DNA from: Lentisphaeria bacterium
Lineage (GTDB): Bacteria > Verrucomicrobiota > Lentisphaeria > Victivallales > Victivallaceae
NCBI GenBank assembly: GCA_017457105.1
Contig: JAFTIA010000064.1
Location: 1-64,000 of the forward strand
DNA: 64,000 bases
Reading direction: 5' to 3'
A program made the translations under genes and the position numbers. How positions within the stretch are numbered: the stretch's first letter is position 1; each line of letters starts with the position of its first letter. Shown piece after piece: positions 5,649-37,840 of the stretch. The notes under the pieces were generated by a model, which did no database searches, was not told where the DNA came from, and saw nothing but the letters and a program-made list of their open reading frames with translations.

Positions 5649-6662
5649 ATGGAAAAAGCCAATAAGATCAAGTTGGGTGCCTTTATTCTGGTTTCGGGAT
5701 TTCTGCTGATCAGCGGATTTCTTGCAGTAGGGATTTTGCGGATCTTTGAACCCAAAGTACATGCGATCACGGTGTTGAATACCTCAGTGGAGGGATTGAG
5801 CGTGGGCTCCCCTGTCAAATATCTGGGCTTGCCGGTGGGGCGGGTTACCCGGATCGCCATGCGGGAAACGGATGGATATATTGCTGTTTATTTTGACTTG
5901 ACCACATCTGCCATGGATAACCTGCCGGCAGGAACACAGCGTTTGCGGGGCTCCGCTTCAGAACTGGCGGAAGTCTTGAAAAAACACAATCCCTCCTGCT
6001 TTATCAATGCCGCAGGGCTGATGGGCGGAACCTATCTGGAGTTGACGCTGGGCGGAATGATGCCCCCTGCCCTGCCGGATGTGAATGACCTTCCGCCGCA
6101 CCTGCTCTACATTCAGGCACGGCCATCCCACATCGGCAATGCGATTCAGAATATCAGCCGGGTCATCGAAGAACTCAGCAGTATCAATATCATCAAAATG
6201 GCAGACAAACTGGATCAGGCATTGGACAGCACCAACGATCTTTTGAGACACGGAGACCTGGTGGATATGTTGAAGCAGATGAACAGTATCAGCAGGGATC
6301 TGGAGTTTTCCATGCGGAATATGCGCAGTGCTCTTTCGGACCAGAATCTGGACAAAATCAACCGGACCATCGCCAATATCGAGCGCAGCACAGCAAGCAT
6401 CATGCAGGCGGCAAGTCAGGAGGAACTGGGGGAAACACTGCGAAACTTGAATTCCTTTTTGCAGGATACCCGGGATTTTCTGCCGGCAGCGGCTCGTCTG
6501 GCAGATCGTTTGACCGCGTCTGCCGGTCCCGCCGGAGCGCAATTGGCTGAAACGGTGACTCTTCTGCATAATCTGACTGCCCAGATCAGCACCCTTGTTG
6601 AGCGGCTTGATGACAATCCGGACGCCCTGCTCCGTGGAAACCGGGCACCGGAAGTAAAGTAA
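5649..6662 (+). CDS. mlaD: MlaD-like MCE-domain substrate-binding protein
   Basis: A 337-residue protein with one N-terminal membrane anchor (about residues 6-28) followed by a single MCE domain at about 38-115 (the phrase SVEGLSVGSPVKYLGLPVGRV is typical). The remainder is largely helical, with a long heptad-like stretch at about 165-300. In this family the MCE domain forms a hexameric ring through which lipids pass, and the helices form a channel or tether. It belongs with the permease before it. The long C-terminal helical part makes it closer to the Mce/PqiB-like elongated forms than to the 180-residue E. coli MlaD. Confidence 0.88.
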   Translation: MEKANKIKLGAFILVSGFLLISGFLAVGILRIFEPKVHAITVLNTSVEGLSVGSPVKYLGLPVGRVTRIAMRETDGYIAVYFDLTTSAMDNLPAGTQRLRGSASELAEVLKKHNPSCFINAAGLMGGTYLELTLGGMMPPALPDVNDLPPHLLYIQARPSHIGNAIQNISRVIEELSSINIIKMADKLDQALDSTNDLLRHGDLVDMLKQMNSISRDLEFSMRNMRSALSDQNLDKINRTIANIERSTASIMQAASQEELGETLRNLNSFLQDTRDFLPAAARLADRLTASAGPAGAQLAETVTLLHNLTAQISTLVERLDDNPDALLRGNRAPEVK

Positions 6663-23055: not shown

Positions 23056-25890
23056 ATGAGCAAGTTCTTATTTGCCGGACTGTTGTGCCTCGGCATTTTG
23101 AATGCAGTCATTGCTGCAGATACCTTACCGCAACTGCCGGGTACCCCGCTGAAACCGGTTTGGAAAGCCCATGCCGTCGCCGCCGTTCAGGACGGAGTTT
23201 ACCGTCTGGCCGCCATCCCCACAAAAGCAGGAGTCAATTACGCCGGATTCCGGGTCAGCATGACCGGCTCCATAAAAGAACAGGCCATTGCCTTTACTGT
23301 AAAAACCGCCGAACCCGGCGCGCCGACCGCTTTGTATGTGCGTATTTATGACAAAAAGAATAAATGTATCGGCTCCTGGTGGAGCTGGAACGCAAACCTT
23401 TCGCCGCAAGCCACAGAATTTACACTGATCCCCGGGGAAAACGCCGGGCGGCTTCCCTGGCAGGAGGCGGATGTAAAATCGCAGGATACGGAAGTTGCCC
23501 GGATCGATTTTATTTTCGGTCAGCGCAACACGGTGGGGAAGCTCTTTCAGGTGGAAGTGACCAATCTCCGGTTTATCAGGGCCGCAGAAATCAAAAAAGC
23601 GGATGTCCCGGAAAAAGCAAAAAAAATCGACATTACCGCCCTGTCCGACAAAGGTTTTGAAGATCTGGGGATCCCTGCCCTGTCAGCGGAACTCCGGGGG
23701 TCCATCGCTTACATGGAAAAAGGCAGGCATTATCTTCTGACCCGTCCCCAGGATCATGGAAAAACCGGATATCTTCTCCTGACGGATCTGGATTCCGGCA
23801 AAACCGAACAGTATTTCAACCCGCCGGAGATCCATCAGCGGGACAATTTCGGCTCCATTCTCACCAGCCGGGGCCTCTTCCTTTATGACCACGGCGGCAA
23901 GATCATCGCCTTTGATACCAAGAGCCGCAAGACCACATATCTCGGTCAGCCGGACAAATCTACAAGTCATTACATGGTTTGTACCGAAGCCCCGGATGGT
24001 ACGGTGTATTTCGGCGGCACCTATACCGCTGTACTGGTATCCTGGAACCCGGATACCGGCAAGTTCCGCAATTACGGCAGAATGGATCCCAAAGAAAAGT
24101 ATGTCAGCACACTGGCCACGGATAAAAACGGCTATGTCTATTGCGGGATCTCCTACGCCCGTGCCAATCTGGTGGCGCTGGATCCAAAGACCGGCAAGAT
24201 CACCCAAATCATTCCGGAAAACATGCGGGGTGTCGGAAAAGGCGAAGTCCGTTCCGGTGCAGATGGATATGCGTATGTAAAATACGGAAAATTTTCTGCC
24301 AAAATGCTGAATGGCAAAATCGTGGAAGAAAATACGGGGCTCCCGGCCGCAAAGGATTTGCGCCCCATCAAAGCCGCTGCTTACGGCGGGAAGTTATGGC
24401 GATTCCCGGATGGAGCAAGGGTATTGAATTTAAGTCTGGACGATAAAACCATTACTTATGAAGATCCGCGGGGAAAACAGAAAGTGATCGATATGCCTTA
24501 TCGGTCCAACGGACTGCATTTCACCAGCATGGGAGGCGGCAATGGCAGGATTTTCGGCTCCACCAGTCACCCCATGCACTTTGTAGAATATAATGTCAGG
24601 GAGAACAAACTTACAGATCATGGCGCACACCCCGCCGTCGGCGGCGGGAATTTCTGCAATATCACGGCAGGTCAGGACGGCAAAGTTTATATGTGCCAGT
24701 ATCCTGCAGGAAAGCTGTGGCAGTTTGATCCGGAAAAACCCTTTCTGGCGCAGTTGCGCGGCATCATTCTTCCCCCCGGCGCACTGGACCCTGCCGATCT
24801 CAGCAAAATCGGCAAAGTAAAAAACGGAAAACTCTCTCTGCTCAGCGGCAATAAGATCCTGCTTTGTCTGGGCTGGAAAGACGGTGCAGAATTTACCTTT
24901 CCTTTGAAAGTGGAAAAGGCGGGGACTTATTACCTGAATGTACAGGCGTACGAACACAGCATTTACGGATCGGCAACTTTTGCGTTTCAGGGCAAAAAGA
25001 AAAAGATGAACCTGCAAAATGTCCATGACAGATCCACGGGCTTTCATCTGGGGCCCTTCAAACTTGCACCGGGAACCTATCCGCTATCCATCGTCAGCAG
25101 GTCCAACGGAAAATCCTCCAAGCCCATGTTCGGCTTGAACGGTCTTCTGCTCTCGCAGGACAAGCCCCTTTCCATGCAGAAAACCGGCAAAAATGACGCC
25201 AATCCCAAAACACTCGGTCAATGGAAACTGGATGTAACACGCCCCCGGGCGGTGCAAATGCACCCGGATGGAAAACATGTAGTCATTTCCGGCTACCCGG
25301 ATTACGGCTATTGCGGAGGCGGCTTCGGCATCCACAACCTTGCCACCGGCAAAAACACGCTGATCAAAGACTGGCTGAACGGACACAGCTGCATTACTTT
25401 CCGCTTTGCGGATAATGGTGACATTGTTGGCGGCACCGACATTGCCGCCCCCGGCGGCGGACATCAGGTGGCAAAGGCCCCCGCCATCTTCCGGCTGGAT
25501 TGGAAAACCGGAAAAGTTACTGCTTTTACAGAATTCCCCGGTTACTCGCTTGTTGCCGATGTGGAATTGTGGAAAAATAAACTTTATGCGGTGCTGCCCA
25601 ACGGCGATCTTGCCGTTGCAGATCCGGGGACTATGAAGATCGAGAAAAAAATCCCCAACGGGAGTTTGGGATACGGCCGCCGCAATACGCTTCTGAAAAC
25701 ATCGGATGACCGGCTCTTTTTCCTGCAAACCAATGCAATATCGGAGATCCATCCGGTCACCGGGGAAAAAATCCCCCTCGCCCGGATGAAATATCCTCTT
25801 TCTTCTGCCGGCGCAGTGGATTCAGGACACATCTATTACTCGTCCGGAACCCATGTGATCCGCTGGCAAATCCCGGCACCGTTAAAGTAA
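23056..25890 (+). CDS. Secreted multi-domain propeller protein, copy 1
   Basis: A 944-residue exported protein; signal peptide at 1-20. After a jelly-roll-like domain (25-185) it has repeated strands of a beta-propeller type (about 200-560, with DLDSGKTEQYFNPPE, SWNPDTGKFRNYGRMDP and LVALDPKTGKI). A beta-sandwich (about 600-725, FPLKVEKAGTYYLNVQAYEH) resembles carbohydrate-binding modules. The C-terminal part (735-944) has further propeller-like strands (RPRAVQMHPDGKHVVI, GFGIHNLATGKN, IVGGTDIAAPGGG). The layout recalls SMP/YncE-like or virginiamycin-B-lyase-like propellers. It is the most divergent of three tandem copies. No catalytic motif is recognised. Confidence 0.6.
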   Translation: MSKFLFAGLLCLGILNAVIAADTLPQLPGTPLKPVWKAHAVAAVQDGVYRLAAIPTKAGVNYAGFRVSMTGSIKEQAIAFTVKTAEPGAPTALYVRIYDKKNKCIGSWWSWNANLSPQATEFTLIPGENAGRLPWQEADVKSQDTEVARIDFIFGQRNTVGKLFQVEVTNLRFIRAAEIKKADVPEKAKKIDITALSDKGFEDLGIPALSAELRGSIAYMEKGRHYLLTRPQDHGKTGYLLLTDLDSGKTEQYFNPPEIHQRDNFGSILTSRGLFLYDHGGKIIAFDTKSRKTTYLGQPDKSTSHYMVCTEAPDGTVYFGGTYTAVLVSWNPDTGKFRNYGRMDPKEKYVSTLATDKNGYVYCGISYARANLVALDPKTGKITQIIPENMRGVGKGEVRSGADGYAYVKYGKFSAKMLNGKIVEENTGLPAAKDLRPIKAAAYGGKLWRFPDGARVLNLSLDDKTITYEDPRGKQKVIDMPYRSNGLHFTSMGGGNGRIFGSTSHPMHFVEYNVRENKLTDHGAHPAVGGGNFCNITAGQDGKVYMCQYPAGKLWQFDPEKPFLAQLRGIILPPGALDPADLSKIGKVKNGKLSLLSGNKILLCLGWKDGAEFTFPLKVEKAGTYYLNVQAYEHSIYGSATFAFQGKKKKMNLQNVHDRSTGFHLGPFKLAPGTYPLSIVSRSNGKSSKPMFGLNGLLLSQDKPLSMQKTGKNDANPKTLGQWKLDVTRPRAVQMHPDGKHVVISGYPDYGYCGGGFGIHNLATGKNTLIKDWLNGHSCITFRFADNGDIVGGTDIAAPGGGHQVAKAPAIFRLDWKTGKVTAFTEFPGYSLVADVELWKNKLYAVLPNGDLAVADPGTMKIEKKIPNGSLGYGRRNTLLKTSDDRLFFLQTNAISEIHPVTGEKIPLARMKYPLSSAGAVDSGHIYYSSGTHVIRWQIPAPLK

Positions 25891-25899
25891 ATGAATATC

Positions 25900-25930
25900 C
25901 AGGAGATTTTGGCGAACCTCCTGTTTCTTT
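25900..25930 (+). terminator. Hairpin with T tract after propeller copy 1
   Basis: CAGGAG (25900-25905) pairs with CTCCTG (25918-25923), followed by TTTCTTTT. The stem is short (6 bp), so termination is probably partial. Confidence 0.5.
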
Positions 25931-25969
25931 TGACATAAACAATATCTTATAAAACGAAAGGATTTTTTC

Positions 25970-28795
25970 ATGAAAAAACAGCTTTGGGCGGGGATTCTTG
26001 CCGGATGCCTCGTTTTCTCCGCATCAGCGGCAGAAGATTTCTCCGGGAAACTCCCGCAGCTTGCGGGGCAGAAAATCAAAACCACATGGAACGCCCCGGC
26101 CGCAGCCGCCGTGCAGAATGGCACCTACACCCTTGCGGCAGTTCTTCCCAAAGAGATGGTACATTACGCCGGATTCCGGATCAATATGACCGGTGACCTT
26201 TCTAAAGAAGCATTGCGCTTTGATATTTCCAGCAGTACGCCGGAAAAAAGCCGGGCTCTCTACATCCGCTGTTTTGATGCTCAAAACAAGTGTGTTGCCT
26301 CCTGGAAAACATGGAGTTCCCCTGCCACCACCAAAACTGCAACAGTCATTTTGGCAGCAGAACGCAACAGTCACGGTCTGGTTTGGGAACCGGAAATGGT
26401 CAAGTCTGCAAGTAAAACGTTTACCAAAATTGAATTCATTATCGGTCACAAGGGTAAAGCCGGGACTGTTTACGATGCAAAATTCAGCAAGATCGGCATG
26501 TGCGCGATCCCCAAAACGGCAACCATGACTAAAACCGCAGTTCCTGCCAAACTTTCCAGCGAAGGCTTTGAAATTCTCGGCATCCCGGCCAAATCGGCAG
26601 AAATCCGGAGTTCTATCGGCTACATCGATAATGGCCGTCATTACCTCCTGACCCGTCCCCAGGATCACGGCAAGACCGGCTATCTCCTGCTGACGGATCT
26701 TGATTCCGGCAAAACCGAACAGTATTTCAACCCCAAAGAAGTCCGGCAGGGGGACAGTTTCGGCTCCATTCTCACCAGCAAAGGGCTTTTTATCTACGAC
26801 CAGCAGGGGGCAAATGTGGTGGTGTTTGATACAAAAACACAGAAATACCGCAATCTTGGCCGCCCGGAACCGCGTGCACAGCATTTTATGGTTTATACCG
26901 AAGCCCCGGACGGCACGGTGTATCTGGGGGGCTATCCCCGGGCAACGATCACCTCATGGAACCCCGAAACCGGAGAGTTCCGCAACTATGGCCGCATGGA
27001 TCCCAAAGAAAGCTATCTCAACCAGATCGCAACGGACAAAAACGGCTATGTCTATTGCGGTATCGGTTCTGCCCGTGCCAATCTTGTCGCTCTTGACCCC
27101 AAAACCGGAAAAGTAACGCAGATCATCCCGGAAAATTTGCGCAAGCTGGGCTGGGGCAACGCCATTTCCGGTGAAGACGGCTATGCGTACCTTGTCTTTG
27201 GCGGCTTTTCTGCCAAAATGCTGGATGGAAAAATCGTGGAAACCAATGTTACTCCGGCCGCTCCCCGCAAGATCCTCGCCGCCAAATACGGCGGGAGATT
27301 GTGGAAATTTGATGACGGCACAAGAGTTCTCAATGTGGATTTGTATAAAAATATCGTTACTTATCAGGGCTTGAACGGCAAACGCCGTGATATTCCTTTT
27401 GACTATGTGTCCGGCGGGCTGCATTACACCAGTATGGGCGGCGATGGTAAAGGCAAGGTTTTCGGCTCCACCAGCCACCCCATGCACTTTGCGGAATATG
27501 ATGCCAACTCCGGCAAAATCACCGACCACGGCCCCCATGCCATCGTTTCCGGCGGGAACTTCTGCAACATTACATACGCCAAAGACGGCACCGTTTATAT
27601 GTGTGAATACGCAGGCGGCCGCTTGTGGAAGTATGATACAACAAAAGCCTTTGACGGCGGCAAAACTGATACGCTGCCGAAAATCCCCGGCATGATGAAT
27701 GTTTCGGAGCTCCACCAGATCGGCAAGGCACAGAAGGGGCATTTCACACTCGTTTCCCACCGTATCCTGCTTTGCTACGGTGATCAGGAAAACGCCACAT
27801 TCACCTTCCCGCTTCAAGTTACTAAAACAGGAGAAACCCATGTAAACATCCTTGCTTATGAACACGGCATTTACGGAACTGCAACGTTTGAGTTTCAGGG
27901 GAAATCCCGCAAAGTTAATCTGCAGAATATTGTCAACCGCAACAAAATGGTCAATATGCCTCCGGTATTTTTAAAGCCGGGAACCTATCCATTGAAAGTC
28001 ACCGTCCGCAGTCACGGCGGGGACTCCCGCCCCATGGTGGGGCTCCTCGGGATCGCTGTTACAGACAGCAGACTCGTCCTGCCGAAAAAACAGAAAATCG
28101 AAACCAATCCGAAGATCCTCGGGGCATGGCCCCAGCAGGTCACGCGCCCCCGTGCGGTGCAAGTGCATCCGGATGGCAAACATGTAGTGATCGCCGGATA
28201 TGCCGGATACGGTCTTTGCGGAGGGAGTTTCGGGATCCACAACCTTGCCACCGGCAAGAACAGTGTTCTCTCGGACTGGCTGGAAGGACACAGCTGTATC
28301 ACTTTCCGGTTTGACAACAACGGTGATATCGTTGGCGGAACAGACATTTCCGCTCCCGGCGGCGGCCACACCGTGGCGACCAGGCCCGCCATTTTCCGAA
28401 TCGACTGGAAAACAAAAAAAGTTGCGGCTTACACGGAAATCGAAAATGTCCGCTATGTCGCCGCCGTGGAATTGTGGAACGGCAAACTCTATGCGGCACT
28501 GGCTGACAGCCGGGTGATCGTGGCAGATCCCCAAACGATGAAGGTGGAACGGGTCTTTGCCGCAAACGGATTGGGAACACCGGTCCGCAATGCACTGATG
28601 AAGTCGGCAGACAACCGGCTTTTCTTCCTGCAGACAAACGGCATTTCGGAATTCCATCCCAAATCCGGAGATATGGTTCCCCGCTGCAGACCGCTGCAGG
28701 GGATCGGCACTGCGGGCACGATCAATAACGGCTATATTTATTTCGCCTGCAATGTTCACTTTGCCCGCTGGAAAATTCCGGCGCCGTTAAAGTAA
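25970..28795 (+). CDS. Secreted multi-domain propeller protein, copy 2
   Basis: A 941-residue paralog of the protein before it, with the same signal peptide plus four-part layout. Identity to copy 3 is visibly high, for instance HPDGKHVVIAGYAGYGLCGG and SVLSDWLEGHSCITFRF, each identical in the two. The N-terminal domain is less conserved. It starts 79 bases after copy 1, with AAAGGA before the ATG and TTGACA at 25930 as a possible -35 for a separate promoter without a clear -10. Expressed as an exported surface or periplasmic protein; function unknown, likely glycan binding or processing. Confidence 0.6.
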   Translation: MKKQLWAGILAGCLVFSASAAEDFSGKLPQLAGQKIKTTWNAPAAAAVQNGTYTLAAVLPKEMVHYAGFRINMTGDLSKEALRFDISSSTPEKSRALYIRCFDAQNKCVASWKTWSSPATTKTATVILAAERNSHGLVWEPEMVKSASKTFTKIEFIIGHKGKAGTVYDAKFSKIGMCAIPKTATMTKTAVPAKLSSEGFEILGIPAKSAEIRSSIGYIDNGRHYLLTRPQDHGKTGYLLLTDLDSGKTEQYFNPKEVRQGDSFGSILTSKGLFIYDQQGANVVVFDTKTQKYRNLGRPEPRAQHFMVYTEAPDGTVYLGGYPRATITSWNPETGEFRNYGRMDPKESYLNQIATDKNGYVYCGIGSARANLVALDPKTGKVTQIIPENLRKLGWGNAISGEDGYAYLVFGGFSAKMLDGKIVETNVTPAAPRKILAAKYGGRLWKFDDGTRVLNVDLYKNIVTYQGLNGKRRDIPFDYVSGGLHYTSMGGDGKGKVFGSTSHPMHFAEYDANSGKITDHGPHAIVSGGNFCNITYAKDGTVYMCEYAGGRLWKYDTTKAFDGGKTDTLPKIPGMMNVSELHQIGKAQKGHFTLVSHRILLCYGDQENATFTFPLQVTKTGETHVNILAYEHGIYGTATFEFQGKSRKVNLQNIVNRNKMVNMPPVFLKPGTYPLKVTVRSHGGDSRPMVGLLGIAVTDSRLVLPKKQKIETNPKILGAWPQQVTRPRAVQVHPDGKHVVIAGYAGYGLCGGSFGIHNLATGKNSVLSDWLEGHSCITFRFDNNGDIVGGTDISAPGGGHTVATRPAIFRIDWKTKKVAAYTEIENVRYVAAVELWNGKLYAALADSRVIVADPQTMKVERVFAANGLGTPVRNALMKSADNRLFFLQTNGISEFHPKSGDMVPRCRPLQGIGTAGTINNGYIYFACNVHFARWKIPAPLK

Positions 28796-28810
28796 ATCGT
28801 TTTTTCGCAA

Positions 28811-28838
28811 GTCCGGCAGAAATGCCGGACTTTTTTTT
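28811..28838 (+). terminator. Rho-independent terminator after propeller copy 2
   Basis: GTCCGGCA and TGCCGGAC (28811-28818 with 28823-28830) form an 8-bp stem with a GAAA loop, followed by eight T. Confidence 0.93.
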
Positions 28839-28864
28839 GCAAAAAAATAAAATAATGCTATCTT
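28836..28864 (+). promoter_or_regulatory. Promoter of propeller copy 3
   Basis: TTTGCA, 17 bases, TATCTT with TGC before it. The -35 overlaps the end of the preceding terminator. A leader of about 200 bases follows before the ATG at 29080. Confidence 0.55.
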
Positions 28865-28871
28865 AAGAGAT

Positions 28872-28885
28872 GATTTCAAAAGTCA
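28872..28885. promoter_or_regulatory. Candidate operator, TTTCAAAAGTCA family, copy 1
   Basis: GATTTCAAAAGTCA lies just downstream of the -10, where a repressor would block initiation. The same core occurs at 35593-35609 and, inverted, at 35629-35645. Confidence 0.45.
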
Positions 28886-29079
28886 TTCAAAAAATGGTAA
28901 AGATGTCATTCGCGAAGAAAAGCAAAGGATAATTTGAGGTTGCTGCCCGTAAGACAACAGCCGGAAACGCGCCCTTTGCAGATCAAAAAAGGGGACTCTT
29001 CAGCCATTTTGAGGAGTTTTGAAAATACCGCTCTAACTTATCATTTTTAATTCAATATTATTAGGAAAAGGAGTTGATG
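28886..29079 (+). other. Long leader before propeller copy 3, no gene seen
   Basis: These 194 bases hold no supported reading frame. GGTTGCTG and CAACAGCC around 28939-28967 could pair imperfectly. I recognise no riboswitch or attenuator. Confidence 0.4.
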
Positions 29080-31902
29080 ATGAAAAAAATATTGCTGGCA
29101 TATCTGCTTGCCGGATATGCAGTTTTCTCCGCATCTGCCGCAGAAAATCATGCGGCAAAACTTCCTGTACTTGCCGGGGAAAAAGTTCAGACCACATGGA
29201 GCGGCCCGTCTGTCGCCACGGTAAAGAATGGGGTCTATACCCTTTATGCCGTTCTGCCGGACAACATGATCCATTATGCCGGATTCAAATTCAAAATGCA
29301 GGGCGATTTGGCAAAACAGGCGTTGCAGTTTACCGTTTCCAGCACTGCACCGGGCAAGACCCGGGCTCTCTATGTCCGGTGTTATGACAAGCAGAATAAG
29401 TGTATCGCCTCCTGGTCAACATGGAATTCGCCTGTAACATCCGCCCCGCAAACGCTGACAGTTGCGCCCGGAATCGGATACAAAAGTCTGGAGTGGGAAC
29501 CGGGTGTGGTGAATGCTGACGGCACGGCCTTTGAAACGATCGAATTCATTTTCGGACACAAGGGAAAAGCCGGAGCGGTTTATGATGCCAAAATTGAAAA
29601 AATTGGATTTTGCGCCATCCCCAAAGAGGATAAGTCTTTTTCCAGACCCAAAATCACGGCAAATATATCCAGAGAAAAAATTGAACTTCTCGGCATTGCG
29701 GCTAAATCTTCTGAACTGCGCGGCTCCATTGCATTTATGGAAAACGGCCGCCGTTACCTCCTTACCCGTCCGCAGGATCACGGTCAAACAGGGTACATTC
29801 TGCTGACTGATTTGGAAAGCGGCAAGACGGAACAGTTCTTCAACCCTCCGGAAGTCCGTCAAGGCGACAGTTTTGGCGCGATCCTGACCGGTAAAGGTTA
29901 TTATCTATATGATCAACAGGGAGGCAATGTAGTCCTTTTTGACCTCAAGACCCGGAAATTCCGCAATCTGGGGCGCCCGGAATCCAGGGCGATGCATTTC
30001 ATGGTTTATACCGAAGCCCCGGATGGCACTGTATATCTGGGGGGCTATCCGCAAGCCACCCTCACTGCGTGGAATCCGGAAACCGGAAAATTCCGCAACT
30101 ACGGACGCATGGATCCCAAAGAAAGTTATCTGAACAAAATCGCTACGGATAAGAACGGCTATGTTTATTGCGGCATCGGTTCTGCCCGTGCCAATCTGGT
30201 TGCCCTCGATCCCAAAACCGGCAAAGTAACACAAATCATTCCGGAAAACATGCGCAGCATCGGCTGGGGGGAAGCCATTACCGGGAGTGACGGCTATGCC
30301 TATCTTATCTTCGGTAAATTCCGGGCCAAAATGCTGGACGGAAAAATCGTGGCAACGGATGTTGCGCTCCCCGCTCCGAAAAAAATCCTTGCCACCAAAT
30401 ACGGCGAAAAAATGTGGCAATTTGAAAACGGCACCCGGGTCACCGGTGTGGATCTGTATAAAAAAGTGATCACCTATCAGGGGCTTGATGGTAAAAAGAA
30501 AGAAATTCCCTTTGATTATCAGTCTGGCGGGCTTTCCTATACCAGCATTGGTGCTGACGGCAAAGGCAGGATCTACGGCTCCACCAATCACCCCATGCAC
30601 TTTGTGGAATATAATGCCAATGCCGGAAAAATGACAGATCACGGCCCGCACACCGTTGTTAGCGGCGGTAATTTCTGCAATATGACTTATGCAAAAGACG
30701 GCACTGTTTATCTGTGTGAATACGCGGGCGGCCGCTTGTGGAAATTCAACCCGGGAAAGCCCTTTGACGGCGGAAATAATGTCGCCCCGCCCCTGCCCGC
30801 CTCCATCGGCGCCCCGGAAATGCAGCAGATCGGCAAAGCGGAAAAGGGCCATTTCACCCTCATCGGGAACTCTATTCTTCTTTGTTTCGGGGATCAGGAT
30901 GGAGCGACCTTTACATTCCCGGTCAACATCAAAAAATCCGGCAAATATTTTGTAAATATGCTTGCCTTTGAACATGCTGTATATGGCACAGCCACCTTTG
31001 ATTTTCAGGGGCAAAAACAAACAGTCAATCTGCAGAAAACACTGGACCGTTCCAGGTTGATCACGCTTGGCCCTGTTGACTTGACGCCCGGCTCATATCC
31101 TCTGGCAATCACGGTCAAAAGCCATGGCGGAAGCTCCAAACCCATGGCAGGGATCCTTGCCATGTCCGTAACCGATAAACCTGCCAAACTGGCAGCACAC
31201 ACAGAAGAAACCAACCCCAAGGTTCTTGGGGTATGGAACCTGCAAGTGACCCGCCCCCGGGCTGTGCAGATCCATCCGGATGGCAAACATGTGGTCATTG
31301 CCGGATATGCCGGATACGGCTTGTGTGGAGGCAGTTTCGGGATCCATAACCTTGCCACCGGAAAAAACAGTGTTCTTTCGGACTGGCTGGAAGGTCACAG
31401 TTGTATTACATTCCGCTTTACGGAAAAAGGTGATATTGTGGGAGGCAGTGACATTTCCGCACCGGGGGGCGGCTATGTCAAAGCAGTGCATCCCGCCATC
31501 TTCCGCATTGACTGGAAAACGAAAAAAGTCGTTGCATCCAAAGAACTTCCAGACATCTCCTATGTTGCGGCGGTGGAATTGTGGAATGGCAAACTTTATG
31601 CGGCGTTAAGCAATGGACAAGTTGTGGTGGCAGATCCGGAAACCATGAACATTGAACGGACTTTTGCCTCCAACGGGAAAGGCACTCCCGTGCGGAACGC
31701 CTTGATGAAAACCCCGGACAACCGGCTTTTCCTCCTGCAATATGGCGGCATATCGGAATTCCATCCCCAATCCGGCGACCTGTATTTGCGGTGCGTTCCC
31801 CAAGCCGCTATTTCGACAGGCGGCGCCGTTTATAACGGCTATCTGTACTTTGCATGCAAAGTCCAATATGCCCGCTGGAAAATTCCGGCACCGCTGAAAT
31901 AA
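29080..31902 (+). CDS. Secreted multi-domain propeller protein, copy 3
   Basis: A 940-residue paralog of copies 1 and 2, with the same layout: signal peptide, jelly roll, propeller-like repeats, a beta-sandwich, and the conserved C-terminal region. The start at 29080 is chosen because GGAG lies 6 bases before it; ATG 29077 and TTG 29074 are too close. It has its own promoter and a candidate operator, unlike copy 2. Near-identical short stretches with copy 2 imply recent duplication or gene conversion in the C-terminal half. Its end is followed by a symmetrical terminator. Confidence 0.6.
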   Translation: MKKILLAYLLAGYAVFSASAAENHAAKLPVLAGEKVQTTWSGPSVATVKNGVYTLYAVLPDNMIHYAGFKFKMQGDLAKQALQFTVSSTAPGKTRALYVRCYDKQNKCIASWSTWNSPVTSAPQTLTVAPGIGYKSLEWEPGVVNADGTAFETIEFIFGHKGKAGAVYDAKIEKIGFCAIPKEDKSFSRPKITANISREKIELLGIAAKSSELRGSIAFMENGRRYLLTRPQDHGQTGYILLTDLESGKTEQFFNPPEVRQGDSFGAILTGKGYYLYDQQGGNVVLFDLKTRKFRNLGRPESRAMHFMVYTEAPDGTVYLGGYPQATLTAWNPETGKFRNYGRMDPKESYLNKIATDKNGYVYCGIGSARANLVALDPKTGKVTQIIPENMRSIGWGEAITGSDGYAYLIFGKFRAKMLDGKIVATDVALPAPKKILATKYGEKMWQFENGTRVTGVDLYKKVITYQGLDGKKKEIPFDYQSGGLSYTSIGADGKGRIYGSTNHPMHFVEYNANAGKMTDHGPHTVVSGGNFCNMTYAKDGTVYLCEYAGGRLWKFNPGKPFDGGNNVAPPLPASIGAPEMQQIGKAEKGHFTLIGNSILLCFGDQDGATFTFPVNIKKSGKYFVNMLAFEHAVYGTATFDFQGQKQTVNLQKTLDRSRLITLGPVDLTPGSYPLAITVKSHGGSSKPMAGILAMSVTDKPAKLAAHTEETNPKVLGVWNLQVTRPRAVQIHPDGKHVVIAGYAGYGLCGGSFGIHNLATGKNSVLSDWLEGHSCITFRFTEKGDIVGGSDISAPGGGYVKAVHPAIFRIDWKTKKVVASKELPDISYVAAVELWNGKLYAALSNGQVVVADPETMNIERTFASNGKGTPVRNALMKTPDNRLFLLQYGGISEFHPQSGDLYLRCVPQAAISTGGAVYNGYLYFACKVQYARWKIPAPLK

Positions 31903-32413: not shown

Positions 32414-33928
32414 TTATTTTTCTCCTGCGGGAATTACTGTTTTTCCGGCCGGGATGGCATATTTTTCCCCGGAAAGGATCAGGGTAAACGGTTTTGCCGC
32501 CCGGACAGTCACCTGACTGTTTTCAGACAGCAGGTCCACCCGGTTCCCGCCGAAGGAAAGGTTGCAAATACCCAGTTTCCCGACATGTTCCGGCAAATTC
32601 CATGCCACTTCATTTTTGAACGCATCCACCGAATAGATCCCGATCACATCCTCTATCAAAAGTGCAATGGGCCCCAATGCCGACCAACCGCAGAAGTCCG
32701 GACGGACAATGCGGTTGTTTTCATCGCAGGACCGTGCCGGTTCCGGCTTATTGGGGTTATAACACTCCCAGATCGTATGGGGTGAATATTGCTCAAATGT
32801 CTTGGACATGTGACCGATGATCCGGAGTGCAAGCTCCCGGGCAAGGTCATGCATGCCATATCTGCCAATGGCTTTCAGTGCCATGTATGCCGTGGGAAGC
32901 CACATGGATCCCCGCCAGTACATGCCGTTTTCACCGTTGAAATCCGGGTCATTCCGGGAAAGCGATACGGCGGGAACTGCCCCTCCGAGAGTTTCCGGAT
33001 CCAGCAGATACTGCGCCTGTTTTTCCGCCTGTTCCGGCGAAGCGATCCCCGCCAGCAGGGGCCAGAAGGAAGCAATGGTCAAAACCTCATGCCTTTCCCC
33101 ATTGGTCATAGAATCAAAGTAACTGCCTTTTTCTTCATTCCAGTAATGGGCATTGACCGTATCCTTCAATGCTTCAAAGGTTTTCTGCCAATGGAGAGCC
33201 ATCTCTTTTTCGCCGATGATCTCTGCCATTTCAGAAATCAGACGGGCACTCAATGCCTGCTGGCAAATGGCATCCAGCCACAACATATCCGGATTGTTCG
33301 GCCGGGGCATGAAAGCGTGTTCCCCCACCCTGCCGCGGGGAGTATTGTCCATGCCGGAACTGCCGCCTTCCCAGTGGTAACCGTGACCATCTTTGCGCCA
33401 CCAGACAGGGGCAAAAACACATTCTGGGGGCGTGGTATCCTGCACCGTTTCCAGCCATTCAAAATGTTTCTGCAAATACTGTTTTTCCAGAAGCAGCGTC
33501 CGCAAATGCTCCCTGCTGCCGTGGAACATGGCATTGGCATGTTCCGACCAGGCAAAAAGCGGCGGATTGGAACCGTGACAAATCTTCATCCGTACCCGAT
33601 CCCCCACGGAATACCCGGTCCAATCCAAATCGTTTTCCACCGTAAGATACGGCAGTTTTTCTGTTCCATGCAGAGGTTCATAGAAATTTTTCAAAGACTG
33701 ATATCCGGGAAACTCCGGTTGGGCATATTTGCAGAAAAGCGCCATAAAACAGGTATCCCAAACCCAGATGAATTCTTTGCAGAATGCCTCGTCCATATAC
33801 GGGGTCTGCGGCATCCCCGGAAGATCCACCACATGTTTATGGGCACATTCCCACGCAAAATCATACAACTTCAAAAATTCCGGATGCTCATCATACACCA
33901 CTTGCGGAAGTGCGGCATGCCAAGTCAT
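32414..33928 (-). CDS. GH63/MGH-like (alpha/alpha)6 glycoside hydrolase
   Basis: A 504-residue protein of the six-hairpin glycosidase group related to GH63 and mannosylglycerate/glucosylglycerate hydrolases. The signature EFIWVWDTCFMALFCKYA is near residues 52-70. GGSSGMDNTPR (Asp, proposed general acid) and IWECYNPNKPEPARS (Glu, proposed base) are the catalytic regions, and DFCGWSALGPIALLIEDVIGI follows the family pattern near the end. No signal peptide, so cytoplasmic and acting on short imported oligosaccharides. GAGGTG lies before the start. It is 8 bases after the MurQ-like gene. Confidence 0.85.
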   Translation of the reverse strand: MTWHAALPQVVYDEHPEFLKLYDFAWECAHKHVVDLPGMPQTPYMDEAFCKEFIWVWDTCFMALFCKYAQPEFPGYQSLKNFYEPLHGTEKLPYLTVENDLDWTGYSVGDRVRMKICHGSNPPLFAWSEHANAMFHGSREHLRTLLLEKQYLQKHFEWLETVQDTTPPECVFAPVWWRKDGHGYHWEGGSSGMDNTPRGRVGEHAFMPRPNNPDMLWLDAICQQALSARLISEMAEIIGEKEMALHWQKTFEALKDTVNAHYWNEEKGSYFDSMTNGERHEVLTIASFWPLLAGIASPEQAEKQAQYLLDPETLGGAVPAVSLSRNDPDFNGENGMYWRGSMWLPTAYMALKAIGRYGMHDLARELALRIIGHMSKTFEQYSPHTIWECYNPNKPEPARSCDENNRIVRPDFCGWSALGPIALLIEDVIGIYSVDAFKNEVAWNLPEHVGKLGICNLSFGGNRVDLLSENSQVTVRAAKPFTLILSGEKYAIPAGKTVIPAGEK

Positions 33929-33936
33929 CGTTCACC

Positions 33937-35568
33937 TCACTTTTTCAATAAACCAAGAGTGTACTGCACAGGGGACGGCTTTTCTTTGTCGGGCGGCATG
34001 GCATCCAGATCTTCCATGGCACGGAATAGTGTTTCGGCAGCAGTTACATAATCCACTTCGCCCAATTCGGAAATAAGCCGGATGGCACGGTCGATCAGTT
34101 TTTTGTTGGACACTGCCACATAACTCATCCAGTTCCCCGCTACCCGCCCGAAAAGAACCATGGTTCCGGTGGAAATGGTGTTGAACATCAGCTTCACCGC
34201 CAGATGTTCAAAGACATGCATCCGGGTTGCTTCCGGAGTAAAGGGGACGGAAAGACGGTATGTATGGGCAAACGCCGCAGCTTCTTTATTGTAAGCCCCG
34301 CTCAACTCCCCACGGGGAGCGGAGAAACTGAACAGCACTGCGGCATCTTTCCCCGTGGCATAACGGCTGGGCAGAGGTTCATTGCCCACAGGGATCTGCA
34401 TCATATCCGCCAGAGAAACTTTCGGGGGATTGGCCGTTACAGGAGAATCCGCCCCCACCATCCGGCTGTAATCCTCCACGGTCCACTCCAGACAACGGGG
34501 CAGACGGTTGCCGAATGCCCGCTTCATGGCATCCGTTGTACAATAAAGCGGGTTCCGGGCAAAGGCCCATGGTTCAGGGAGAATATTGTCCGTTATTTTT
34601 TTGAATCCGGGCAGCATAAAGGTTGGGGAGCGTTCTGTGGTGTCCGTAAAGATATCCAGCAAATAATCATCCACAAAATAGGTCACCCGACCGCCCTGCT
34701 TGTAAATGCCGCACTCAAACTGCATATAATCAGCAAGGATTCCAACATTGCGCTCACTTTCCACCTGATCCAACAGAGATTCAAAGCAACCAGCGTAATC
34801 CACCGTTCCGGGTTCTCCGGAAAGATTCCGCAAAACAGCATCCAGTGCCGCAGATGCGATCAACTGTTCCGACGTCGTTGCCTGCATCCGTGTGGATCCT
34901 GCAAGAGCCATGGGCCCGCAGGAAAGGTCAAGCACGGTCACCATGGGGTTGGTGATCGCCTCCCGGGAACGGGCAAGATGTTCCTTCAAAATCTCCGCAG
35001 GGTTGTTGAAAAGAAGAAAAGCGCGGCATCCGCGGCGGGTGGCTTCTGCAACAGTCCCCAGAACGGAACTTGTTTCGCCGCCCTCTGTAATGGCGACCAG
35101 CAAATCCGCAGGCCCCATATTCCGGTCCGCCACCTGCCGTGCCCCGAATACCGCAAAATCCTCAAAAGATTCCACAGATTTGATCAGAGCGTAATCGCCG
35201 CCGGTCATAATGCTTTCCACATGGGAGGCATATTTCTCCCCTGCATAAGACCGCCACATGGCCTCCAGCAAAATGGAAAGCCGCCCGGTGGCTCCGCATC
35301 CGGAAAAAATGATCCGGCCGCCATTGCTGATAACACGGGTCCCGGTTGCAACAAAATCAGCAAAGGCCTCTGATGCCAAAACCTTCTTTGCCATCTCCAG
35401 CACATTACGGTCCACCCGCTGAAGCATCCGGACACCGTCTTCCGGAGAACCGGCAAACACTTTATCCATCCCCCGGGTCAGCGGATTGGATTGTTCCGTA
35501 GGCAGAAACCCCAGATGAAACGGTTTCTCATTTTCCACAAAATCGCGGGCTTTTTCCAAATATGTCAT
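33937..35568 (-). CDS. MurQ/GckR-like double-SIS sugar-phosphate protein
   Basis: A 543-residue protein with two SIS-type regions. The first has GGRIIFSGCGATGRLSILLEA and TEGGETSSVLG; a MurQ-type GSTRMQATTSEQLIAS follows. A second region carries KLMFNTISTGTMVLFGR and GNWMSYVAVSNKKL, also as in MurQ. MurQ itself is about 300 residues and cleaves N-acetylmuramate-6-phosphate; the doubled size recalls glucokinase regulatory proteins. The start at 35568 is preferred (GGAG before it; family-like MTYLEKA); the 35613 start crosses the putative promoter. With the glycosidase and CYTH genes it forms one operon, probably salvaging a sugar phosphate. Confidence 0.78.
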   Translation of the reverse strand: MTYLEKARDFVENEKPFHLGFLPTEQSNPLTRGMDKVFAGSPEDGVRMLQRVDRNVLEMAKKVLASEAFADFVATGTRVISNGGRIIFSGCGATGRLSILLEAMWRSYAGEKYASHVESIMTGGDYALIKSVESFEDFAVFGARQVADRNMGPADLLVAITEGGETSSVLGTVAEATRRGCRAFLLFNNPAEILKEHLARSREAITNPMVTVLDLSCGPMALAGSTRMQATTSEQLIASAALDAVLRNLSGEPGTVDYAGCFESLLDQVESERNVGILADYMQFECGIYKQGGRVTYFVDDYLLDIFTDTTERSPTFMLPGFKKITDNILPEPWAFARNPLYCTTDAMKRAFGNRLPRCLEWTVEDYSRMVGADSPVTANPPKVSLADMMQIPVGNEPLPSRYATGKDAAVLFSFSAPRGELSGAYNKEAAAFAHTYRLSVPFTPEATRMHVFEHLAVKLMFNTISTGTMVLFGRVAGNWMSYVAVSNKKLIDRAIRLISELGEVDYVTAAETLFRAMEDLDAMPPDKEKPSPVQYTLGLLKK

Positions 35569-35592
35569 TTTCCTATACTCCGATTCATTTGT

Positions 35593-35645
35593 GATCATTT
35601 CAAAAGTCATCAAAATAAAGAAATTGTCTGACCTTTGAAATTACC
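35593..35645. promoter_or_regulatory. Inverted pair of TTTCAAAAGTCA-type motifs before the MurQ-like operon
   Basis: GATCATTTCAAAAGTCA (35593-35609) faces TGACCTTTGAAATTACC (35629-35645), whose reverse complement matches at most positions, with 19 bases between them. A minus-strand promoter TTTCAA-17-TATTTT would fall between and over the arms. A single copy of the same core lies at 28872-28885. Confidence 0.5.
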
Positions 35646-35718: not shown

Positions 35719-36609
35719 TTATTCAAACAAAGCCTTAACATTGCCCAAGCTGACTTCCGCCCCTTCGAGGCAGGGTTCTTTGCCTTCGTATTCCACAGAA
35801 ATGAAGCCCTTGTACTTCACTTCCTTGAGGAAGGCAACGATCTCACGCAAGTTTACATCGCCGCAACCGGTCATGGCTCCGCGCAAATAACGACCGTGAA
35901 GTGACTTGAAATGCATTGCGGGAGTAGGCACCCAGTCACGGATATGGAAATCCTTGAAGTGGATGATACCGGAAGCGATGTCGATATTGTTCATCAAACC
36001 GGTCATGGGCTGTTCATCGGCACAGAGGAAGTTCCCCACGTCAATAGTGTGCTTGTAGTTGGGGCGGTTCACGCCCAACACCAGACGGCGGACGCGTTCA
36101 CTGCCCTGAAAATGGAAACCGTGATTTTCCACACTGGTGGTGATGCCGAACCCGGCAGCATAATCAGCAATTTCCTGACATGCCTTGATGACTTTCGGCA
36201 GGTCTTTTTCAAACTGTTCCAGCGAGCATTTGTCCTGCGCCCGGTAGCAAACGTCGTGACGCATCAGCTTCACGCCAAGAGCGGCGGCAATATCCACCTG
36301 ACCTTTGACCCGTTCGATTTCTTTGCGGTATTCAGTCTTGGTGGTATCGTGGGCATCTTCACCTGCGGTGATAAAGTTGGCACCGATGGTGTAGCTGGAA
36401 AGAGCGATCTTGCACTTCTTTGCCTTTGCCTTGATCGCTTTTACAACTTTGGGATCGTCCACATCAATATAGTTGCCGGGAACAACTTCGGCGTGCTCCC
36501 CGCCGTGATCGGCGATCCATTCAATAGCACTCAATACATCCAGTTCCCCGGCACGGATGGCACGGGACAAACTGTAAATACTCATACCGACTTTCATCGT
36601 ACTGCTCAT
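35719..36609 (-). CDS. Sugar phosphate isomerase/epimerase (TIM barrel)
   Basis: A 296-residue AP-endonuclease-2-like TIM barrel of the xylose isomerase-like family. Metal-binding positions are visible: SVENHGFHFQG (Glu), HTIDVGNFL (Asp), IIHFKDFH (His) and ISVEYEGKEP (Glu). Such enzymes isomerise or epimerise sugars, inositols or keto-sugars, often together with a Gfo/Idh/MocA dehydrogenase, which is exactly the gene before it (22 bases away). AGGAG precedes the start. The substrate is unknown. Confidence 0.9.
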   Translation of the reverse strand: MSSTMKVGMSIYSLSRAIRAGELDVLSAIEWIADHGGEHAEVVPGNYIDVDDPKVVKAIKAKAKKCKIALSSYTIGANFITAGEDAHDTTKTEYRKEIERVKGQVDIAAALGVKLMRHDVCYRAQDKCSLEQFEKDLPKVIKACQEIADYAAGFGITTSVENHGFHFQGSERVRRLVLGVNRPNYKHTIDVGNFLCADEQPMTGLMNNIDIASGIIHFKDFHIRDWVPTPAMHFKSLHGRYLRGAMTGCGDVNLREIVAFLKEVKYKGFISVEYEGKEPCLEGAEVSLGNVKALFE

Positions 36610-36631: not shown

Positions 36632-37840
36632 TTATTTTTTCTTGGCTGCAGTTTTCTTTGCCGGAGCCTTCTTTGCCGGAGCAGCAGCTTTTTTGGCAAC
36701 GGCCTTCTTTACCGGAGCGGCTGCTTTTTTGGCAACGGTCTTCTTTGCCGGAGCGGCTGCTTTTTTGGCAACGGTCTTCTTTGCCGGAGCAGCTTTCTTC
36801 ACAGCGGCTTTTTTCGGAGCGGCTTTTTTCGGAGCGGCCTTCTTTTCCACCCGGTTGCGGGGAACTTCACCCTTGCCGGAAGCATTGGAGTCACGGATCG
36901 CAGTTACCAGTGCGATTGCCTGACGGCCCGCCATCCAGTTCTGATTGCCGCCATTGAGGATGGAATCCACAAAGACTTCCTGGGAATTCGGGTGGGCCGG
37001 GAAGGATTCCGCTGAATAAAGTTTGGTCGCCGTCGTGGAACCGGCAGGAATAAAGGCAAAGCCGCCGTCAATGGATTTAAGGGAGCCTTTGGTACCATAA
37101 ATTTCAATGGACCACCAGCTGGTGGGATAGGTCCAGCTCAATTCCAGGAACCCGGTGGCACCGTTTTCAAAATCCAGCAGAGCATTCACATTGTCTTCCA
37201 CCTTGTGCTCACGGGTACGGGTGATGCCCAGCACTCGCTTGGCAGGAGAATTCAACATCCACTGCATCAAATCTGCCATGTGAACAGCAATATCCCCCAC
37301 AAGACTGCCCTCAAATTTGGGATCAACAAACCAGTCCGCCCCCGGAGACCAGCCCTTGTTCGGGGCCTGCATTCCGGCACGCTGGCTGCGGAAAGTCAGC
37401 ACATCCCCCAGCAACCCATCCTGAATAAGCTGACGGAGTCCGACATAAAGCGGAATATAACGGAAAGACTGATTGACCTGCAGGATCAAACCATTCTTTT
37501 CAGCCAGATCGATCATTTCATCCGCCTGTTCCGGGGTGTAAGACATGGGTTTTTCCACCAGAACATGTTTGCCGGCCTTGAGGGCGCGGATGGTCTGCGG
37601 ATAATGGCAGCTGTTGGGCGTGGCGATGATCACGGCATCCACGGCATCAAACAATTCCTGTTCACTCTTGCAGAACTTCGGCTTCATACCGAATTTCTTT
37701 GCAAGTTCCTTTGCCTTTTCCGGCACAATGTCATACATGGCTGTAATGGAGGCATTTGCCTTGACTTTTTCCATTCCGGGCACATGATTCCGGGTGGCGA
37801 TCGCACCGCAACCGATCAAACCAAACTTCAGCTTAGCCAT
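36632..37840 (-). CDS. Gfo/Idh/MocA oxidoreductase with histone-H1-like C-terminal tail
   Basis: A 402-residue NAD(P)-dependent sugar or inositol dehydrogenase. The Rossmann domain begins GLIGCGAIATRNHVPG; the family lysine motif is VLVEKPMSYT. The second domain (about 125-325) carries DIAVHMADLMQWML with the catalytic-like His. The final 70 or so residues are a low-complexity run of Lys, Ala and Pro, with units like APAKKTVAKKA, as in histone H1 or bacterial H1-like proteins. This tail is no part of the enzyme family. It is encoded by three 36-base tandem repeats and degenerate flanks. The gene has a good Shine-Dalgarno (AGAGGAG) and a promoter at 37885-37912. Confidence 0.92.
   Translation of the reverse strand: MAKLKFGLIGCGAIATRNHVPGMEKVKANASITAMYDIVPEKAKELAKKFGMKPKFCKSEQELFDAVDAVIIATPNSCHYPQTIRALKAGKHVLVEKPMSYTPEQADEMIDLAEKNGLILQVNQSFRYIPLYVGLRQLIQDGLLGDVLTFRSQRAGMQAPNKGWSPGADWFVDPKFEGSLVGDIAVHMADLMQWMLNSPAKRVLGITRTREHKVEDNVNALLDFENGATGFLELSWTYPTSWWSIEIYGTKGSLKSIDGGFAFIPAGSTTATKLYSAESFPAHPNSQEVFVDSILNGGNQNWMAGRQAIALVTAIRDSNASGKGEVPRNRVEKKAAPKKAAPKKAAVKKAAPAKKTVAKKAAAPAKKTVAKKAAAPVKKAVAKKAAAPAKKAPAKKTAAKKK
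36668..36775 (-). repeat. Three tandem 36-base repeats coding the H1-like tail
   Basis: Units 36668-36703, 36704-36739 and 36740-36775 are nearly identical, in frame, and each encode twelve residues of Lys/Ala/Pro/Val/Thr. Degenerate copies continue on both sides (to about 36640 and 36850). Repeat number is likely variable between strains. Confidence 0.9.

Follow-up and report, generated by a model that had tools for sequence, protein, structure and literature searches.

Histone-H1-like tails have been described in bacteria mainly on proteins that bind nucleic acids or granules. In HbhA, the C-terminal Lys-Pro-Ala domain, which contains AKKA motifs, is both required and sufficient to bind DNA (PMC10665949), and the C-terminal lysine-rich repeats of HBHA bind heparin fragments (PMC3293801). 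The KPAA tails of AlgP and PhaF were reported to bind DNA and to position granules, the tail being thought to hold granules to the nucleoid; AlgP also associates with polyphosphate granules (PMC9239181). The length of chlamydial Hc2 varies by repeat number (PMC2848022). Among prokaryotic low-complexity regions, Lys-rich ones have been linked to nucleic-acid binding, and in eukaryotes such regions are depleted in metabolic proteins (PMC6821194). The open-access literature was searched for Gfo/Idh/MocA enzymes with tails of this kind and for the exact repeat peptides described below, and no report concerning metabolic enzymes was found. Here, such tails were found repeatedly within one bacterial order, attached to either terminus of cytosolic metabolic enzymes.

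The window, that is, the whole stretch of 64,000 nucleotides analysed, contains an open reading frame at 36632-37840 (minus strand) that runs from ATG to TAA in a single unbroken frame of 402 amino acids. Residues 1-330 (36851-37840, minus strand) form a Gfo/Idh/MocA oxidoreductase core, consisting of an N-terminal Rossmann NAD-binding domain and a C-terminal alpha/beta domain. Pfam placed GFO_IDH_MocA at residues 4-123 (E 1e-30) and GFO_IDH_MocA_C3 at residues 135-254 (E 4e-28). The Rossmann domain (PF01408) scored 107 bits against a gathering score of 24, and the C-terminal domain exceeded the cutoffs of both PF22725 (98.5 bits against 27) and PF02894 (70 bits against 22.9). The EKP motif was found at residues 96-98, within HVLVEKPMS (92-100). 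When the AlphaFold2 core was searched with Foldseek, the Gfo/Idh/MocA structures 1zh8, 2glx, and DgpA were matched. The nearest solved relatives are DgpA1 (9m3d) and the oxidoreductase 1zh8. Every NCBIfam equivalog scored below its cutoff for this protein, and no substrate was assigned. The gene product is best explained as an ordinary NAD-dependent Gfo/Idh/MocA dehydrogenase, its activity being predicted from these matches.

The remaining residues, 331-402 (36635-36850, minus strand), form a C-terminal tail composed of 28 Ala, 27 Lys, 7 Pro, 6 Val, 3 Thr, and 1 Glu and ending in AKKTAAKKK. Its net charge is +26, whereas that of the core is +2. Tandem Repeats Finder detected a 36-bp repeat at 36666-36794 (minus strand) with 3.6 copies of KTVAKKAAAPAK-type units, 93% matches, and a score of 216. 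The units are almost identical to each other in DNA, so the tail expanded recently. AlphaFold2 predicted residues 321-402 as coil with a pLDDT of about 33, that is, as disordered; since the model is shallow, built on an alignment of three sequences, only the contrast between core and tail was taken from it. The tail scored 22.1 bits with the HC2 profile (PF07382; cutoff 40) and 23.2 bits with the NCBIfam profile NF038053 (cutoff 80), and these sub-cutoff scores indicate a resemblance in composition only. A folded domain followed by a terminal disordered Lys/Ala/Pro repeat is the architecture of the AKKA- and KPAA-tailed proteins mentioned above. The preliminary description, which had placed an H1-like repeat over the last 70 residues of a Gfo/Idh/MocA protein, was thus borne out by the frame and the composition. 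Its coordinates were also correct, the tail proper beginning near 36850 on the minus strand, and its term "histone-H1-like" is apt as a description of the Lys/Ala/Pro composition.

The dehydrogenase ends with TAA at 36632-36634 (minus strand), followed by 22 bases, including AGGAGA, before the ATG of the next gene. Because stop, AGGAGA, and ATG stand in this order, the tail ends within a normal operon. The next gene (35719-36609, minus strand; PF01261) encodes a xylose-isomerase-like TIM-barrel protein and is a conserved operon partner. It is followed by genes for a MurQ/GKRP-like double SIS protein (33937-35613, minus strand; PF22645, with the NCBIfam MurQ-like model below cutoff) and a GH63/trehalase-like glycoside hydrolase (32414-33928, minus strand; PF22422 and PF01204). 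None of the three products carries a tail. The dehydrogenase and its isomerase/dehydratase-like TIM-barrel partner probably belong to a sugar-catabolism operon. Beside it, at 23056-31902 on the plus strand, lie three tandem paralogous open reading frames of about 942 amino acids each, which appear to encode signal peptides and contain propeller-like motifs in repeated form. The Gfo-TIM pair was kept in five other genomes (G161, G170, G016, G028, and G065) and, with a gap, at a paralogous locus of the window genome (G000). Untailed relatives, for example that in G016, retain the same Gfo-TIM operon, and the TIM gene is not adjacent to the tailed orthologues of genus g36. The tail therefore does not track its context, and genomic context was rejected as its explanation.

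Homologues of the dehydrogenase were compared across 198 genomes of the class, where the nearest showed 48-53% identity. All four g36 species searched (G171, G076, G081, and G084) have orthologues with tails of about 137-173 amino acids. Genus g36 belongs to f4, another family of the same order as the window genome. In G169 (genus g45), the orthologue bears a tail of 33 residues whose end, KTAAKKK, is close to the KKTAAKKK end of the window protein, and that in G161 has a short basic extension that is not H1-like. The tail is missing in G170, in genomes of genus g16 in family f1 (one of the sequences being truncated at a contig end), and in a paralogue of the window genome itself (contig C39). 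When the cores were placed in a maximum-likelihood tree, the window gene grouped with this untailed paralogue (99/96), separate from the g36 clade. Nearer homologues of the window gene, this paralogue among them, are thus untailed. The branches concerned have good support and require the tail state to have changed at least twice, so that, on the core tree, the tail has been gained, or lost, more than once. A single ancestral tail without losses was rejected, since the tree puts the window gene beside an untailed sister in its own genome and hence needs independent gain or repeated loss. Furthermore, most homologues are without a tail, so that it is dispensable for the activity of the core. The claim in the preliminary description that the tail is absent from the family was wrong in this order, in which both orthologues and other Gfo/Idh/MocA subfamilies carry such tails. 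That relatives might lack the tail, which it had also considered, was true of the sister paralogue, of g16, and of most other homologues, and untrue of the four g36 species and the one g45 species.

Other carriers in the order were sought with a DNA pattern for KK-x-A-P-A-KK in 137 genomes, using the reversed pattern as a control. DNA patterns were used because a protein query with the tail missed an AK-rich gene of the window genome owing to composition bias. The pattern matched 43 of the 137 genomes, and the control matched almost none. By family, the matches comprised 27 of 36 genomes in f4, 15 of 78 in f1, and 1 of 23 in the remaining families. Tails were found on at least three other Gfo/Idh/MocA subfamilies, at the N- or the C-terminus. 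G062 has an N-terminally tailed member, G164 has another with a tail of about 160 residues, and a third subfamily has C-terminal tails in G164 and G180 and a shorter one in G062. Pfam identified unrelated tailed enzymes among the hit loci, namely a DegT aminotransferase, pyruvate phosphate dikinase (PPDK), GH39, and GGGtGRT. A second DNA pattern, for proteins ending in [AT]-A-K-K-K-stop, added S-adenosylmethionine synthetase (MetK) in G096 and an alpha-L-arabinofuranosidase (GH51-type) in G175. Tails were also found on the nucleic-acid proteins DksA/TraR, RpoD, and RsfS, as well as on an AsnC-type domain, SecG, and a protein kinase, and free H1-like proteins such as L093 and L119 occur in the order. 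In subfamily B, the one read in most depth, with about 52 loci, four (L115, L137, L175, and L236) have extended Lys-rich tails and about 48 have no H1-like tail, most of the latter ending at or near YF-NGQKK. With few members tailed and most ending near NGQKK, the tails have been gained or lost sporadically, starting from a short basic end.

Several further tailed proteins were observed during this search. The GH39 enzymes of G090 and G094 (L126 and L133) have C-terminal Lys/Ala/Pro tails of about 180-210 amino acids. Proteins of 720-760 amino acids with short N-terminal H1-like tails (L083 and L084 in G062; L116 and L117 in G166) are unassigned; G062 has three, some in tandem, with counterparts in G166, and the Pfam scan gave no match for the G062 copies. 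A small protein family of genus g41 beginning with MKEIF.DG (L105, L107, L127, and L132) has C-terminal Lys/Ala/Pro tails of about 100-135 amino acids, with no Pfam match in the two copies scanned. In the window genome, the start of a Lys/Ala/Glu-rich protein is cut by a contig end (L081; G000:C55, 2-406, minus strand).

Elsewhere in the phylum, 20 loci with the KK-x-A-P-A-KK motif were sampled outside the order, in other families and other classes. The carriers identified by Pfam were HU, DksA/TraR, GyrA, and RsfS, and most of the others were free H1-like proteins. This range of carriers links the module to nucleic-acid proteins. Metabolic carriers made up 17 of the 53 proteins read in the order and none of the 18 read outside (Fisher p 0.003); this excess is indicative only, as the outside sample favoured loci in which the motif occurs many times, and related species do not count as independent.

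It is plausible that the tail tethers the enzyme to DNA, RNA, or some other polyanion. A nucleic-acid tether is favoured because near-identical published tails, those of HbhA and AlgP, bind DNA, and we infer nucleic-acid binding here from HbhA, AlgP, and PhaF. We accordingly give an even chance to the reading that a disordered H1-like tail was grafted onto a metabolic dehydrogenase and probably acts as a non-specific nucleic-acid tether. Such tails would have arisen when short basic C-termini (RKK, GQKK) were repeatedly lengthened to Lys/Ala/Pro tails, partly by in-frame tandem duplication. The tail would bind nucleoid DNA or RNA by charge, without specificity, and several tails on an oligomeric enzyme would be expected to raise the avidity. 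Some of the enzyme would presumably stay at the nucleoid or in zones rich in RNA, perhaps to some benefit, with its catalysis unaltered.

The sporadic tails of subfamily B (4 tailed against about 48 untailed loci), the untailed sister paralogue in the same genome, the youth of the 36-bp repeats in the window, and the position of tails after short basic C-termini such as GQKK would also fit near-neutral growth, in which repeats coding for Lys and Ala lengthen through replication slippage wherever a protein end tolerates it, without any selected role. This is the main rival, above all for the young repeat of the window, and polyanion binding in vitro would be compatible with it; as a general explanation we hold it possible but on the doubtful side. 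The g36 orthologues argue against it, as all four species keep the tail and its K/A/P composition while synonymous positions have diversified. Their cores are 83-91% identical in DNA with a pS of about 0.34-0.56, whereas their tails consist of 94-100% K/A/P/T/V/S with almost no Arg and with three acidic residues in all, confined to one species. The Ala, Lys, and Pro codons in these tails are mixed. These values are consistent with selection on composition, to which homogenisation of the repeats could contribute; a self-offset pN/pS test of the repeats was blurred by phase shifts, and only the composition and the core pS were taken from it. In a test of cassette copying between genes, blastn among the tails gave roughly the similarity expected for a shared peptide with mixed codons. 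Tails of similar composition are concentrated on the soluble enzymes of a single order and occur at either terminus; this concentration and the strong clade bias towards f4 also speak against neutral growth. As a separate observation, the tail of the G081 orthologue shifts frame close to its end at a run of C (L067; G081:C26, about 6120-6176) and continues in the other frame as PVKAAPAKKAAKKK, reflecting either an assembly error or a real frameshift.

The target of the tail could alternatively be another polyanion, such as polyphosphate granules, an anionic membrane, or a glycan that is sulfated or contains uronic acid. The heparin binding of HBHA (PMC3293801), the presence of AlgP with polyphosphate granules (PMC9239181), and the glycan activity of several carriers (GH39, GH51-type, and Gfo/Idh) would agree with such a target. 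An extracellular glycan is, however, unlikely, because the N-terminus of the dehydrogenase goes straight into the Rossmann fold (MAKLKFGLIGCG) and leaves no room for a signal peptide. The carriers identified in the loci sampled outside the order are nucleic-acid proteins, and we regard another polyanion as quite improbable. Finally, the dehydrogenase could have been joined to a separate H1-like gene by misassembly or by a frameshift, the latter having been raised by the preliminary description; the free H1-like proteins of relatives (L093 and L119) would be conceivable partners. Such an artefact is scarcely credible and was rejected, given the one clean frame, the proper operon junction, and the same architecture with different repeat units in at least four independent genomes.

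A wider proposal, which we consider unlikely, is that the portable H1-like tail serves as a general localisation tag across the order, by which part of metabolism would be held on the nucleoid or in nucleic-acid condensates. If so, unrelated enzymes of central and sugar metabolism (several Gfo/Idh/MocA subfamilies, DegT, PPDK, MetK, GH39, GH51-type, and GGGtGRT) and the transcription proteins DksA and RpoD would share this polycationic tag. Tailed and untailed orthologues form pairs that amount to a natural experiment, in which one enzyme could be compared in both states for DNA or RNA binding, localisation, and kinetics. The repeated gains, for their part, show a way in which a short basic C-terminus may grow into a disordered tail.

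Compared with known systems, the window protein shares its whole core, the EKP motif, and a TIM-barrel operon partner with DgpA, 1,5-anhydrofructose reductase, and inositol dehydrogenase, whereas matches to the solved Gfo/Idh/MocA relatives are confined to the core and none of these is named for a histone-like tail. Hc2 (PF07382) and the Burkholderiales proteins of NF038053 resemble the tail in their Lys/Ala repeat composition, with weak profile scores; however, they are stand-alone nucleoid proteins, and the tail falls far below the curated cutoffs. Pseudomonas AlgP and PhaF likewise combine a non-histone domain with a long, disordered C-terminal tail rich in KPAA, but their units are KPAA instead of KKAAPA, and they are granule proteins, not enzymes. 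In HbhA and HupB of M. tuberculosis, a Lys-Pro-Ala tail with AKKA/PAKKA repeats is attached, as here, to an unrelated folded domain, although this domain belongs to a coiled-coil adhesin/NAP in the one and to HU in the other, instead of to a metabolic dehydrogenase. Taken together, we judge the tail to be a known kind of module, of the type found in HbhA, HupB, AlgP, PhaF, and Hc2, that has been recurrently grafted onto metabolic enzymes.
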